IMG/VR virus record: IMGVR_UViG_3300023180_005138
Location: 1 to 64,000 of that record
From: a virus
DNA: 64,000 nt
Direction: 5' to 3' (one strand)
Each line of letters starts with the position of its first letter. Positions within the stretch are counted from its first letter, which is position 1. This document shows positions 6,374 to 25,861 of this stretch, piece after piece. The position numbers and the translations under genes are program-made. Under the pieces are notes generated by a model. That model did not search any database and had not been told where the DNA came from. It worked only from the letters and a program-made list of their open reading frames with translations.

Positions 6374-6820
6374 CTAAAAACCGAAGCCACTTGTCGGTAT
6401 TTCTACTGTTGTTACAGTTCCATTTGCATCTGTCACTGTCATTCTAATCATATCACCAATCGTCTCATATTGTATTGTATTTCCTAGAATAGTAATTGTT
6501 CCGCTCGACTGTGGGTTTTCCCCAAATAGCTTTTCACTTAACTGTTTACTAAGTTCTGCATAAACTCTACTCTCAAAATTTCTTAAAAACTTATTAATAT
6601 TAGTGTTTTCTGCTTCTCTTTCAGCTTCACGAGCCTCTGATTCTTTTTTTGCTTCTATATCCTTTTTTCTTTGAAAAGTTAAATTTTCTATGGTAAGAAC
6701 ATGAGAACTAAACCCCTGACCGTTAAAAGCCGGAGATTTAAAAGAATGTTTAAGTTCAGAAGCACTACTTGGGCTTACTAGGATGATCAAGGTCATCCAA
6801 ATTATCAATCTTGCCATCAT
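6374..6820 (-). CDS. csgF: CsgF-type curli assembly factor
   Basis: 148 residues with a signal peptide (about 1-20, ending SSA before SELKH). The mature start, HSFKSPAFNGQGF, matches the CsgF segment that inserts into the CsgG constriction. A charged helical linker (EAKKESEAREAEREAE) is inserted where bacterial CsgF has a shorter neck. It then continues with FLRNFESRVYAELSKQL and a C-terminal TITILGNTIQYETIG...MTVTDANGTVTTVEIP beta region, as in CsgF. CsgF sits outside on CsgG and couples secretion to nucleation. The gene lies 12 nt upstream of csgG and overlaps the preceding membrane-protein gene by 56 nt. The call rests on both end motifs and context. Confidence 0.85.
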   Translation of the reverse strand: MMARLIIWMTLIILVSPSSASELKHSFKSPAFNGQGFSSHVLTIENLTFQRKKDIEAKKESEAREAEREAENTNINKFLRNFESRVYAELSKQLSEKLFGENPQSSGTITILGNTIQYETIGDMIRMTVTDANGTVTTVEIPTSGFGF

Positions 6821-7055
6821 TATCTTTATCTCTTAATTGTAGAATAGTATTTAATTTTTGATTCAATCTAATTAAATCATTATCTAACATTCTAATTTGG
6901 TCAATTAGTTGAATAAGAGTACTTTGAGTTTCTGATATAACAGGTTTTACAATTTTAGTACTCCATGTCCATACATAATAAACAAAATAACCTAATCCCA
7001 TAGCTGCGATAATAGGAAATCCATATTTACTTATAGCATCTGCAATAGCATCCAT
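6765..7055 (-). CDS. small membrane protein with coiled coil and EF-hand-like loop
   Basis: 96 residues: a short N-terminal amphipathic stretch, one membrane segment (about residues 13-32, GFPIIAAMGLGYFVYYVWTW), a coiled coil (about 38-75, with MLDNDLIRLNQKLN) and a calcium-binding-like DKDNDGKIDNLDD loop near the C-terminus. It resembles the neighbouring gene at 7288-7566 in its GFP-I-AA membrane segment and its DLIR motif, so the two are probable paralogues. One membrane helix plus a coiled coil is common in phage holin-like or pore-support proteins, but function is not shown. It is encoded just before csgF, overlapping it. Confidence 0.6.
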   Translation of the reverse strand: MDAIADAISKYGFPIIAAMGLGYFVYYVWTWSTKIVKPVISETQSTLIQLIDQIRMLDNDLIRLNQKLNTILQLRDKDNDGKIDNLDDLDHPSKPK

Positions 7056-7070
7056 TATTTTTTTCTCTTT

Positions 7071-7304
7071 TTACTTACAGATTTTCTCACCCTCTTTAAA
7101 CGCTTTTTTTAATTCACAATCTTTACCTGTTACCCCACTAACTACATTATCAGTAAGATTTTTACCTGTCTCAGCTTCAACAGCGGAGTCAACTGCAAAC
7201 CACCCTATAGAACTAAATATTTGAGTGGCTGTTACAGCAGTGCAACCAGTTAAACAAAACATAAATAAAACACTAAGAATTAAATTTTTAGTCCCGTCTA
7301 GCAT
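7071..7304 (-). CDS. small lipoprotein of unknown function
   Basis: 77 residues from the ATG at 7304, chosen because AAGGAAAAG lies just upstream; an in-frame start 24 nt further up is less likely. The signal peptide ends FCLTGC, a clear lipobox, so the mature protein is lipid-anchored. The rest contains FSSIGWFAVDSAVEAETGKNL and two cysteines near the end (KDCELKK, EKICK). No family is recognised. Its place between two membrane-protein genes of the curli-type locus suggests an envelope role. Confidence 0.6.
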   Translation of the reverse strand: MLDGTKNLILSVLFMFCLTGCTAVTATQIFSSIGWFAVDSAVEAETGKNLTDNVVSGVTGKDCELKKAFKEGEKICK

Positions 7305-7566
7305 CTTCTTTTCCTTGTGCTCTAGCAATTCTTTCTATATCTGGTTTAGTACCTAACGCAGAAGACATTAAAATATCAATTCTAATCAAATCATGATTCA
7401 TTGTTTTAACACGATTATCTAGCGACATAATAATTCCTTGCATAGATTTTACAGATCCCATAACACTAGCTAATATAAATTTCATTGTTGTAAAAACAAA
7501 AAACCCGCTTGCAAGCGCAGCTGCAATCGGAAACCCCACCTCAGAAACTAATTTTAAAAAATCCAT
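7288..7566 (-). CDS. small membrane protein, paralogue of the 6765-7055 product
   Basis: 92 residues from the ATG at 7566, preceded by GGGAG; the longer reading frame upstream runs through a terminator hairpin and is rejected. Residues 5-35 form a membrane segment (VGFPIAAALASGFFVF...) followed by a predicted coiled coil (SLDNRVKTMNHDLIRIDILM). The segment and the DLIR motif match the other small membrane protein two genes downstream. First gene of the curli-type cluster. A holin-like role is possible but unproven. Confidence 0.6.
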   Translation of the reverse strand: MDFLKLVSEVGFPIAAALASGFFVFTTMKFILASVMGSVKSMQGIIMSLDNRVKTMNHDLIRIDILMSSALGTKPDIERIARAQGKEDARRD

Positions 7567-7580
7567 TTTTATTACTCCCA

Positions 7581-7626
7581 ATAAAAAAAAACATAGATAT
7601 ACATAATGAGTATATCTATGTTTTAA
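7581..7626 (-). terminator. intrinsic terminator, probably bidirectional
   Basis: A perfect 12-bp inverted repeat (ACATAGATATAC at 7591-7602, GTATATCTATGT at 7610-7621) with a 7-nt loop. It is flanked by a nine-A run on the left and TTTTA on the right, so a U-tract follows the hairpin in either direction. It ends leftward transcription of the spanin genes just before the curli-type cluster, implying that the cluster has its own expression control or depends on read-through. Confidence 0.8.
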
Positions 7627-7670
7627 TAAATTTACCAGCAAAATTTTCTTAAAGTAAGTTTTTACTTTGC

Positions 7671-8099
7671 TTACTGCTTATTTTTATCCGTATTATCTTT
7701 TGGTTTTTCAACTTTAGGTTTTATAGCCTCTTCATAATAAACTATAATTTTATCTTGCTGCTGAATATATCTTCTTAACTCAGATAGATTTATTGCTAAA
7801 TCCTCATAATCCCTGACACTAATTGCATAAAAAACAGTATTTCCATTTTCTTTTTCAAAACGTTTTAAAAAATCATTTAAATTCTTCTTCGTTACTACAT
7901 AAAATTTTACATTATTCATAGTAACAGGTTTTGGTTTTGTTTGAATTGGAATTTCGGGTCGTACAATTTTAGTCTGTACAGTCACCTTATCTTCTAAGAA
8001 GCCAGCACAACCTGTTAACGCAAGACTACTTAACAATAGGCTGCTTAGGAATAGCCCCTGTATCTTTTTCGATCTCTTCAAAAACTTTCTTTGTAGCAT
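7671..8099 (-). CDS. outer-membrane lipoprotein, probable o-spanin
   Basis: 142 residues. An N-terminal basic region and hydrophobic segment end in ALTGCAG, a lipobox (Cys about 31). The mature part is Pro/Lys/Val-rich then helical (KKNLNDFLKRFEKENG, INLSELRRYIQQQDKI) and ends in a charged Lys/Asp tail. Its start lies inside the end of the upstream gene (74-nt overlap), which encodes a membrane-anchored coiled-coil protein. This is the usual arrangement of Rz/Rz1 spanin pairs that fuse inner and outer membranes at the last step of lysis. The muramidase gene lies about 1 kb upstream. Confidence 0.65.
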   Translation of the reverse strand: MLQRKFLKRSKKIQGLFLSSLLLSSLALTGCAGFLEDKVTVQTKIVRPEIPIQTKPKPVTMNNVKFYVVTKKNLNDFLKRFEKENGNTVFYAISVRDYEDLAINLSELRRYIQQQDKIIVYYEEAIKPKVEKPKDNTDKNKQ

Positions 8100-8412
8100 T
8101 ATTAATTTTTCCTTCCACTAAAGCAGGTTTTTTCTCACTGAGAGCAGTGAGATCGTGCTTTCTTAGTTTTTGTCTTAATTCATCTCCATACGCTTCAGAT
8201 TCTTGTAATTGCTTTTGTAACTGAGAGTTTAGTTGAGAAAACTTTTTAGAATCTGCTTGAAGAGTATTGATTGTTTCTTGGTTAGTCTTATTAGCTACTT
8301 CAAGTTTAGCATTATTTTCTGTTAATATCTTAATTCTGGCCTGAGAGTCGTTATAGTACCAATAACCGGCTCCTGCCATTAAAATTATAACTACAATAAG
8401 ATATTTAGACAT
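8026..8412 (-). CDS. membrane-anchored coiled-coil protein, probable i-spanin
   Basis: 128 residues with one N-terminal membrane helix (about 3-20, YLIVVIILMAGAGYWYY) and then a long coiled coil (about 25-85, rich in Gln, Asn, Lys, Leu). The C-terminus is Pro-containing (GAIPKQPIVK). This is the shape of an Rz-like inner-membrane spanin. The overlapping downstream lipoprotein supplies the outer-membrane partner. The final ATG/stop junction with the previous gene shares one base (8412). Confidence 0.65.
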   Translation of the reverse strand: MSKYLIVVIILMAGAGYWYYNDSQARIKILTENNAKLEVANKTNQETINTLQADSKKFSQLNSQLQKQLQESEAYGDELRQKLRKHDLTALSEKKPALVEGKINNATKKVFEEIEKDTGAIPKQPIVK

Positions 8413-8576
8413 TAATATTCTCTCTTTGTAATTTCTTTATACATCTTTTTTATAAACTTACTAAAAGTATCATCAAAGATAAAAGGAAATACTGCATGAG
8501 TTAGTAGGCATACTCCCGTATAAAAAGATAAAAAAGAAGTAAAAATAGCAAATTTGAAATGTTGCCAATAACTCAT
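8412..8576 (-). CDS. small one-pass membrane protein, unknown
   Basis: 54 residues from the ATG at 8576, which has AAGGAAG upstream. One hydrophobic segment (about residues 8-31, FAIFTSFLSFYTGVCLLTHAVFPF) is followed by a basic C-terminal helix (FIKKMYKEITKREY). Small proteins with a similar MSYW-HF-FAI start occur in other marine phages, as I recall, without known function. It precedes the spanin pair, so a lysis-related role is possible. Confidence 0.5.
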   Translation of the reverse strand: MSYWQHFKFAIFTSFLSFYTGVCLLTHAVFPFIFDDTFSKFIKKMYKEITKREY

Positions 8577-8602
8577 TTTTACTTCCTTAAGATGATTAAA
8601 AT

Positions 8603-9181
8603 TTACCATTTTTCTTGTCTTTCAAAGTTAATATATAGCCCAGACTCAATAGAACGATCAATTAATGGGCCTAAAGTATCACTAACATACTCTTTTGCTG
8701 ATATTTCTCCAGAAAAATTTAATTTTGTTAATACATTACCTGGACAAATGCATAGTGTAATAATATCAGGATTATTTATATGATAACAAAGCCCTAACAT
8801 GTTAAAAGCTGCTTTACTACATTTGTGTAGTATGATGTCATTTGGAACTTTTTTAGATTCCTGAGTCCAAGAAAACACTCCTCCTGTAGAGGTTATTAAT
8901 ACTAATTTTTCTTTTATTTGTATATTTTCTAAAATTTTAGAGTAACTAAAGAGGTTTACTTTAAACATATTATAAACCTCTTCACTTCTTTGTGCAGCAG
9001 AAAAAATAACTAAATCAAAATAAACATCTTTTATTTTATTTATGAAATTAGCAACACTTTCTGTGTTACACAAATCTAACTCAGCTCTAGAAGTAGATAA
9101 GACATCATAACTGCTACTATGGTAGTTAGCTAATGCCTTACCTATACCTCTATTAGCACCTATTATTAATGCTTTTTTCAC
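8603..9181 (-). CDS. short-chain dehydrogenase/reductase-like protein
   Basis: 192 residues with a Rossmann nucleotide-binding start (IIGANRGIGKALA; glycines 8, 12, 14), an SAAQ motif in place of NNAG, and a TSTGG strand. The usual catalytic YxxxK reads HKCSK, so Tyr is replaced by His while Lys is kept. It is shorter than classical SDRs (about 250). The gene is wedged between the muramidase and the lysis membrane proteins. Either it uses an altered mechanism or it is a nucleotide-binding protein without normal redox chemistry; substrate unknown. Confidence 0.75.
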   Translation of the reverse strand: MKKALIIGANRGIGKALANYHSSSYDVLSTSRAELDLCNTESVANFINKIKDVYFDLVIFSAAQRSEEVYNMFKVNLFSYSKILENIQIKEKLVLITSTGGVFSWTQESKKVPNDIILHKCSKAAFNMLGLCYHINNPDIITLCICPGNVLTKLNFSGEISAKEYVSDTLGPLIDRSIESGLYINFERQEKW

Positions 9182-9183
9182 TT

Positions 9184-9723
9184 TTACCAGTCAGGTTGTT
9201 TTAACATTGACATTGCAGAGTCAGTAGTTTCTGTAACTCTCCTAGTCCAACCTCTACCAAAAGTATCAAAAGTTTTTAATGACTCATAATATGCTTGTCT
9301 ACGAGCTTGATATTCGCTAATTATTCCTTCTACGCTTTCCATATTCACAAACTCTGTAACTTTTCTTAGAGTTGCAGGACCAATCGCTCCATCAGCAGAA
9401 GCTCCAATCATTCTTTGTAAATATTTAGCAGCTCTACCTGTTCCAGCATTTACTCCAAAATCAAAAACACATAAATCAAGACCTACAGGAAGTTTATCGC
9501 ATTTTAAACGTCCCCAATAGTTCTTTTCATAAATGGGAGCAACATCTTCGATAGTTAAATCTTTCATGTCTTTTTGATGTAGATCATTTTCCATACACCA
9601 AGCTTCATAAACTCTTTTCGTAACTCCAAGATTTGTTTCTCCACCAGGGTCTTTAGGATGGTTTACGTAACCCCCTTCATGGTGAAGAATAATTTTTAGA
9701 CAATGATTAAAACTATTTGCCAT
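9184..9723 (-). CDS. GH108-type N-acetylmuramidase endolysin
   Basis: 179 residues. The N-terminal HHEGGYVNHPKDPGGETNLGV motif is diagnostic for glycoside hydrolase family 108, with catalytic Glu16. The helical middle includes FDFGVNAGTGRAAKYLQ, and the C-terminal part (GASADGAIGPATL) matches the family's peptidoglycan-binding domain. It cleaves the glycan backbone of peptidoglycan at the end of infection. No signal peptide is seen, so it probably needs a holin. It has its own promoter (9759-9787) and heads the lysis gene group. Confidence 0.92.
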   Translation of the reverse strand: MANSFNHCLKIILHHEGGYVNHPKDPGGETNLGVTKRVYEAWCMENDLHQKDMKDLTIEDVAPIYEKNYWGRLKCDKLPVGLDLCVFDFGVNAGTGRAAKYLQRMIGASADGAIGPATLRKVTEFVNMESVEGIISEYQARRQAYYESLKTFDTFGRGWTRRVTETTDSAMSMLKQPDW

Positions 9724-24811: not shown

Positions 24812-24832
24812 AAATTAAAAAAGGGGTTGACA

Positions 24833-25066
24833 GTGTCGCAAAAATCATATAAAATAACTATAATGCTAAAGAGAGGAATACTCGATAACGCAGGAAAAGC
24901 GACAACTAAAGCTTTAAATAATTTAGGGTTTAAAACTGTAGAAGATGTTAGAATTGGAAGATGCATCTATCTTACTACAGACAAAGATATTGAACCCATA
25001 GCTCAGTCTCTTTATAATAGTGTTATGGAAGAGTATGAAGTTAAGTGTCTTGATGACGTAGACTGA
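24833..25066 (+). CDS. purS: PurS subunit of FGAM synthase
   Basis: 77 residues from GTG at 24833, chosen because AAGGGG lies six bases upstream. The pattern YKITIMLKRGILDNAGKATTKALNNLGF, VEDVRIGRCIYL and NSVMEEYEVK matches PurS (about 80 residues). With PurL and PurQ of the host it makes the enzyme that converts FGAR to FGAM in purine synthesis. Phage-encoded purS is known from cyanophages. Its stop codon abuts the acceptor piece of the tmRNA. Confidence 0.9.
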   Translation: MSQKSYKITIMLKRGILDNAGKATTKALNNLGFKTVEDVRIGRCIYLTTDKDIEPIAQSLYNSVMEEYEVKCLDDVD

Positions 25067-25451
25067 AAACTGAACTGGACCGGGGGGCAGTACCCCGCGC
25101 CTCCACCATAAACATATGAAGGAAAAACAATGGATTGGTTTACAGCAGATTTAATACATGCAATGAACGAGACATCGTGGGTCGATGGCATTGGAACCAT
25201 TGTTGTTCTACTTGGTGCTTACTTTGTATACAAGTGGATTAACAATAAATTCAAATAATCGTGTGTTTATGATGGGGGCGAAATAGGATCGACAGGCAGA
25301 TAATAGGAAAGCCGAGAGACAGGTGCGCAAGCGACCTTAACCGCAAGAAAATCAATAAATGCAAACGATAATTTCGTAGCATCTGAGAATTATGCACTAG
25401 CTGCATAATCTTTCTGGGGTTCGGTAGGTTCCTAGCAACAGAATACCTACC
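25062..25451 (+). ncRNA. ssrA: circularly permuted two-piece tmRNA precursor
   Basis: The acceptor piece (about 25062-25108) ends ...GCGCCTCCACCA. The coding piece begins GGGGGCG at 25274. These pair as a 7-bp acceptor stem with G-U at the third pair, the alanine identity element, and discriminator A. The tag frame at 25361-25408 encodes ANDNFVASENYALAA then TAA, a normal ssrA tag with a degradation-signal end. The coding piece closes in a GGTAGGT/ACCTACC hairpin (25423-25451) containing CCTAGCAACAGAA, as I recall from alphaproteobacterial forms. Acceptor-before-coding order with a 165-nt intervening segment is the permuted, two-piece architecture. It would rescue stalled ribosomes and tag proteins during infection. 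Confidence 0.93.
25130..25258 (+). CDS. 42-residue membrane peptide encoded inside the tmRNA intervening segment
   Basis: An ATG at 25130 with GAAGGA about eight bases upstream opens a 42-codon frame ending at 25258, 15 nt before the coding piece. The peptide has a polar N-terminus (MDWFTADLIHAMNETSW), one membrane helix (about 19-36, DGIGTIVVLLGAYFVYKW) and a basic tail (INNKFK), so N-out or N-in single-pass topology. The whole frame lies between the two mature tmRNA pieces. Intervening segments are normally short and non-coding, so the arrangement is odd. Confidence 0.6.
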   Translation: MDWFTADLIHAMNETSWVDGIGTIVVLLGAYFVYKWINNKFK

Positions 25452-25465
25452 ATTTTGAGGGACAA

Positions 25466-25861
25466 ATGTTATACGAAATCTTAAAATTTCCTACTGTTTC
25501 TGATGACAGAGGCAATCTAACCTATATTAATAATCTTGAACAAATTCCTTTTGAAATTAAAAGAATGTTTACTGTTGATAGCGTCCCTGCCGGAGCTGTC
25601 AGAGGCGGTCATGCACATCATCAGCTTCAAGAAGTCTTAATTCCAATTTATGGAAGATTTATCGCTTATTTATCAGACGGAAAAACATCAGAAGAAGTAG
25701 AGATGATTAATCCTAGAACTGGTTTATTATTATATCCTCATATTTGGAGAGAAATAAAAGGGTATACAAAAGGAGCAATTTGTTTATCTCTTTGCTCTAT
25801 GACTTTTGATGAGTCTGACTATATTCACACATGGGAAGAATTTAAAAAAATATATGTCTAA
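25466..25861 (+). CDS. fdtA: FdtA-type dTDP-keto-hexulose 3,4-ketoisomerase (cupin)
   Basis: 131 residues. RGNLTYINNLEQIPFEIKRMFTV, then VRGGHAHHQLQEVLIPIYG and LYPHIWREIKGYTKGAICLSLCS match the FdtA/WxcM cupin family, with the HAHH active-site cluster. It isomerises dTDP-4-keto-6-deoxyglucose (the RmlB product) to a 3-keto sugar for transamination by a DegT enzyme. RmlB is encoded next (8-nt overlap) and DegT enzymes in both arms, so the core route is present. Confidence 0.88.
   Translation: MLYEILKFPTVSDDRGNLTYINNLEQIPFEIKRMFTVDSVPAGAVRGGHAHHQLQEVLIPIYGRFIAYLSDGKTSEEVEMINPRTGLLLYPHIWREIKGYTKGAICLSLCSMTFDESDYIHTWEEFKKIYV

Follow-up and report, generated by a model that had tools for sequence, protein, structure and literature searches.

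Can the part of a tmRNA precursor that is cut away during processing also be the message of a protein? The question arises from a virus genome in IMG/VR (record IMGVR_UViG_3300023180_005138, 117,378 bases), the first 64 kb of which form the stretch analysed here, hereafter the window. A sequence-only reading had noted, in the segment that processing removes from a permuted tmRNA, a 42-codon ORF with a ribosome site, and had proposed that one transcript would be both message and tmRNA precursor. We have examined the locus and its relatives for coding potential, mobility, gene context and predicted folding.

A small ORF nested in the intervening segment of a permuted phage tmRNA

ARAGORN called a permuted tmRNA at 25016–25499 with the tag ANDNFVASENYALAA, and the Rfam families (RF04321/RF01849) matched about positions 25046–25454, with scores of 117 bits for alpha_tmRNA and 116 bits for tmRNA_permuted. 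The locus has the architecture of RF04321, that is, an acceptor piece followed by a coding piece, the two joined by the acceptor stem, and a tag frame with an ALAA-like end. With CGCCUCC-A-CCA, the acceptor strand, finishing at 25108 and the partner strand GGGGGCG beginning at 25274, the excised segment covers 25109–25273, as the sequence-only reading had proposed. The ORF is likewise found at 25130–25258 within it, with the sequence AAGGA (25119–25123) six bases 5′ of its ATG. The features of the locus are as follows.

24833–25066, + strand: purS-like gene with a GTG start, an upstream TTG at 24827 being possible (Pfam PurS, E 9.7e-17)
25046–25108, + strand: tmRNA acceptor piece, with the T arm, CGCCUCC, A, and CCA at 25106–25108 (Rfam RF04321/RF01849, ARAGORN)
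25109–25273, + strand: intervening segment of 165 nt, excised on tmRNA processing; its 3′ end is the conserved UGAU
25109–25119, + strand: predicted closing stem, 5′ strand, reaching 25107 in the minimum-energy fold; the stem is common across phage segments
25119–25123, + strand: AAGGA, Shine-Dalgarno sequence for the nested ORF, situated at the margin of the closing stem
25130–25258, + strand: nested 42-aa ORF from ATG to TAA, phrog_9048-like small membrane protein
25259–25269, + strand: closing stem, 3′ strand, from the fold
25274–25454, + strand: tmRNA coding piece, with the acceptor 5′ strand GGGGGCG at 25274–25280 (ARAGORN, Rfam)
25361–25408, + strand: tag reading frame ANDNFVASENYALAA and stop (ARAGORN)
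25466–25861, + strand: downstream gene, FdtA/WxcM-like sugar isomerase (Pfam FdtA, E 3.7e-37), starting 11 bases past the tmRNA match

The order of purS-like gene, tmRNA and FdtA-like gene is operon-like, and the stop codon of the purS-like gene falls within the tmRNA acceptor piece. Judged by gene content, the window phage is a T4-like marine phage resembling the pelagimyophages; a search of the 117-kb record for Gp23 gave no match, and neither did the control genomes.

The nested ORF has the marks of a protein-coding gene

When the segment was dinucleotide-shuffled 5000 times, an ATG-initiated ORF of 42 codons or more with a ribosome site arose in 0.4% of the shuffles. The nested peptide matched the profile of PHROG 9048 over residues 6–41 (E 1.1e-5) and is 71% identical to Mosig_00134, a 42-aa gene of Pelagibacter phage Mosig. 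A scan of IMG/VR for relatives of the nested ORF found 77, among them 17 further contigs in which the ORF is also nested in a permuted tmRNA segment. Together with the window this makes 18 nested copies and eight distinct coding sequences. Conservation in the segments of related phages had been set as a check of the sequence-only reading, and it held: frame, start and stop were intact in all 18 copies, and the nested relatives also have the ribosome site. The second check, on Ka/Ks, pointed to purifying selection, with dN/dS values of the window ORF of 0.11 and 0.16 against the two nearest nested lineages (L129 and L149, respectively). Between the window and L149, 13.7 of 25.3 synonymous sites had changed, compared with 13.3 of 97.7 non-synonymous sites. 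Comparisons with the most diverged copy (L199) gave higher values, 0.36–0.63.

A chance ORF kept open by RNA constraints would find some support in the short length of the frame, since ORFs that long arose in 5% of the shuffles when any start was accepted and no ribosome site was needed; the low dN/dS, the ribosome site and the existence of homologues outside tmRNAs rule it out, leaving it practically no probability. Conservation of the segment as RNA alone is rejected as well, because synonymous changes are in excess. On these comparative grounds we regard the nested ORF as a genuine protein-coding gene. Because this gene lies within the excised segment, the proposal that the same transcript is mRNA and tmRNA precursor gains support from the sequence comparisons. 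The further part of that interpretation, in which processing would destroy or free the message and so time its expression, is a conjecture.

The AlphaFold model of the window peptide consists of one helix spanning residues 2–41 (pLDDT 79). The best 19-residue Kyte-Doolittle mean was 1.52, just below the usual cut-off of 1.6, a threshold that the relative L149 passes at 1.65. The peptide is a probable membrane helix, short and of moderate hydrophobicity; the 'clear membrane helix' of the sequence-only reading is slightly overstated for the window copy. Pfam and PHROGs gave no function for the peptide, and no holin or other lysis family matched it.

The intervening segment behaves as an exchangeable slot

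Comparison of the window with L129, a locus cut at its contig end, showed that the segments are identical at 158 of 165 positions (96%), whereas the two tmRNA parts agree at 48 of 93 and 101 of 159 positions (52–64%), and the acceptor stem and tag of L129 differ from those of the window. The opposite pattern was seen between L149 and L199, whose tmRNAs are 92–94% identical while their segments share 73%, the ORF being far more diverged than the tmRNA. In a tree of 72 ORF sequences, which is small, poorly resolved and built on a short alignment, nested copies appeared in three places. In Mosig the ORF is located next to a baseplate-hub gene, and the tmRNA, found elsewhere in that genome, has a short segment without the ORF. 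This permuted tmRNA (L207, Mosig 111558–111772) still contains ATGAAGGAAATTAATG in its short, ORF-less segment. Three other phages (L761, L762 and L764) have a tmRNA with a segment of just 12 nt and, about 1 kb downstream of it, a free copy of the ORF. In Mosig the ORF adjoins phrog_10198; the window record, which is possibly incomplete, gave no match to it, and hence no direct donor site can be demonstrated. Taken together, sequence comparison indicates that the segment moves between different tmRNAs and behaves as a slot, stable and exchangeable, in which small genes reside.

Unrelated small ORFs occupy the same segment in other phages

At least ten unrelated small ORFs occupy the slot in other phages. 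One group, family 2, has a membrane peptide of 38–48 aa and an overlapping leader ORF in the segment. ARAGORN called a permuted tmRNA at 58 of the 80 family 2 loci; visual inspection revealed one junction or both in about a dozen others, and a few copies stand free of any tmRNA. In this family (L036, L050, L071, L116 and others; segments of 159–183 nt) the leader is acidic, the membrane peptide is read in another frame, and its ORF ends at a UGA directly 5′ of the mature tmRNA 5′ end. Further occupants are the Melnitz type, the CVEYICINNYS type, membrane types of 73 and 45 aa, the YYVMNLKTG type, and singletons in L083, L254, L363 and L377; the last three include a 30-aa membrane peptide, a 67-aa soluble type and a 43-aa type. 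The ORF of the CVEYICINNYS type (L130 3306–3467, L023, L020) reads through the closing stem, and in L130 it continues into mature tmRNA sequence. Nine pairs of these other slot ORFs were compared, and dN/dS was 0.05–0.33 for eight of them and 0.74 for the other. A search for isolates in a phage collection gave no match for families 2 and 4 and one weak match for family 6.

The frequency of such ORFs was estimated from two unselected pattern scans with a threshold of at least 25 codons. An ORF with a ribosome site was present in at least 18 of at least 126 distinct phage segments among the matches listed, against about 1.5 expected from shuffles. A loose pattern of CCA, ribosome site and ATG retrieved mostly unrelated DNA, plus three further nested ORFs. 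Bacterial segments were short (median 34 nt, maximum 74, n = 33) and none of the 33 contained a ribosome-site ORF, a control that is biased because it consists of best-scoring matches, which favour short segments; three longer bacterial segments, inspected by eye, had no obvious ribosome-site ORF. A nested ORF as a general feature of permuted tmRNAs is ruled out by the same 33 best-scoring bacterial segments.

A promoter-like element precedes most ORF-bearing phage tmRNAs

Most ORF-bearing phage tmRNAs carry TATAAATA, in a sharply defined position, 74–80 bases (around −76) before the CCA end. The element was found in nine of 10 nested family 1 loci, 35 of 40 family 2 loci, 51 of 95 short-segment phage tmRNAs and none of 33 bacterial ones, and many of these sites have a TTGACA box about 17 bases upstream. 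Its sequence would suit either a sigma-70 −10 element or the T4 late motif, and in combination with the TTGACA box it possibly constitutes a combined early/late phage promoter. The window tmRNA is without TATAAATA, and its nested copy is probably transcribed together with purS. A promoter-like site, TTGACA-17-TAAAAT, at 24827–24855 overlaps the start of the purS-like gene.

Gene context suggests a probable role in lysis

Free and nested copies of the ORF have lysis genes as neighbours in several phages. One free copy (L153) overlaps or abuts a spanin pair; another (L718) stands in a series of lysozyme, spanin pair, nuclease, ORF and membrane protein; and a contig similar to the latter (L720) has a spanin at the same distance. 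Many other free copies are found in settings unrelated to lysis, with baseplate or basic small proteins as neighbours. Nested membrane-peptide loci of families 1 and 2 had an endolysin on the same strand within 3.5 kb upstream in 28 of 41 cases, compared with 12 of 93 ORF-less loci (Fisher P = 3.5e-10, calculated without correction for relatedness); since related phages share gene order, the 41 loci do not count as independent events. The window phage has its endolysin and spanins on the opposite strand, at a distance of about 16 kb from the nested ORF, together with two other holin-like candidates. This cluster (6374–9723, minus strand) comprises a GH108 endolysin, a spanin pair, a 65-aa DUF6356 membrane protein overlapping a spanin, and two phrog_18771 membrane proteins that are paralogues of each other and match holins weakly. 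From gene context, that is, by guilt by association, we consider with moderate confidence that the nested peptide is most likely lysis-related.

A predicted stem closes the segment

The precursor fold is predicted to be strong (z = −5.4). The predicted acceptor stem runs on, through an A-U pair and the CCA, into a stem made of the two ends of the segment, with the ORF in the loop. This closing stem was present in 96% of the segments and in 12–21% of the controls. As it is nearly universal regardless of whether an ORF is present, it belongs primarily to tmRNA processing.

In family 2, the Shine-Dalgarno sequence of the leader is predicted to be buried in the closing stem, where it pairs with the last codons of the ORF. 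Across 38 sequences, this ribosome site had a mean unpaired probability of 0.00 once the precursor is complete, against 0.58 as long as the 3′ strand has not been made. The corresponding means in the window family were 0.42 and 0.50, a small and inconsistent change, and the window copy itself went in the direction opposite to family 2, with 0.86 in the full fold compared with 0.36. Because the stem does not clearly mask the ribosome site in this family, the folding models do not support a translation switch by the closing stem for the window copy itself.

Proposed role and alternative explanations

The explanation that we favour, with moderate confidence, is that a real membrane-protein gene occupies an exchangeable slot of the tmRNA, has a role in lysis, and is translated before processing. 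The peptide, a holin-like or lysis-timing membrane protein, would partner the endolysin in lysis of the host cell. Its translation from the precursor would precede the action of RNase P and of 3′ trimming, which part the two mature tmRNA pieces. Translation as far as the stop codon, which lies 15 nt upstream of the mature 5′ end, would hold the acceptor stem open for a short time, and by this proposed effect each molecule would be message first and tmRNA afterwards. The broader claim that the slot is a standard site for lysis-related membrane peptides in marine phages, with peptide translation and tmRNA maturation mutually exclusive, we regard as doubtful.

It is conceivable, if rather unlikely, that the segment is a passive cargo slot, a harmless site with a free strong promoter, in which case the peptide could have any function and translation would not be coupled to maturation. 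Very different ORFs, soluble and membrane, are indeed found in the segment; the same ORF occurs free elsewhere, as in the baseplate region of Mosig, whose tmRNA segment lacks it; the closing stem forms with and without an ORF; and the comparative evidence fits a gene riding on the tmRNA promoter equally well. Against this, the membrane peptides of the slot go with an endolysin far above chance, though the loci are related, and the burial of the first ribosome site of family 2 in the closing stem (unpaired probability 0.00 in 38 sequences) suggests more than passive lodging. The same burial, with its contrast of 0.00 and 0.58, would fit a structural switch, in which closure of the stem on tmRNA folding stops translation and gives one short burst of peptide per transcript, tied to the supply of tmRNA; the high frequency of the stem relative to controls also agrees with it. 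We think such a switch improbable, given that the change in the window family is small and inconsistent, that it is reversed in the window copy, and that these values come from thermodynamic folding.

The function of the peptide could also lie in another membrane process, such as superinfection exclusion or modification of a host membrane enzyme, with lysis neighbours by chance. Most free copies are outside obvious lysis cassettes and no lysis family of Pfam or PHROGs matches the peptide, as this would predict; but lysis genes adjoin free copies in two unrelated settings and precede most nested copies, and we consider another role unlikely. If the lysis role is true, phages of very abundant ocean bacteria would combine ribosome rescue and the timing of lysis in a single transcription unit. 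The nested gene also gives a function to a stretch of the tmRNA precursor regarded as waste, offers a compact case of a single transcript that is message and precursor of a stable RNA, and adds several small phage protein families overlooked in annotation, because a gene caller and an RNA finder will each take the locus as its own.

Comparison with known systems

Permuted tmRNAs have been reported for phages Melnitz and Mosig (PMC9004378). The available part of that paper makes no mention of an ORF in the Melnitz tmRNA segment; we find one in its 142-nt segment (L002). Melnitz is a cultured phage with a nested ORF of another family, in which translation of the precursor is directly testable. 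No description of a protein gene nested in a tmRNA segment was found in the open-access papers searched, and priority is uncertain.

Like the holins and pinholins, the window peptide is short and probably a single membrane helix, and endolysin or spanin genes adjoin the ORF in several relatives; unlike them, it has no match to a known holin family. With PHROG 9048, represented in T4-like cyanophages and by Mosig_00134, the nested peptide shares its sequence family; the known members are free-standing genes of unknown function, whereas the window copy is nested. The two-piece permuted tmRNAs of Alphaproteobacteria and phages (RF04321, RF01849) share their architecture with the window, whose segment codes for protein while the bacterial segments surveyed are without such an ORF.

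Cargo in tmRNA genes has been described as group I introns with homing endonuclease genes and, in permuted intervening sequences, as one tRNA-Ala and one repetitive element (PMC11915505); no protein gene in such sequences is mentioned in the accessible part of that source. The present case resembles this cargo, as there described, in that extra genetic material, once a gene (tRNA), resides in the removed part of the precursor. It differs from what that part describes in that no intron is involved and the material is a protein gene that is conserved and under selection, recurs in phages and comes in several unrelated families.
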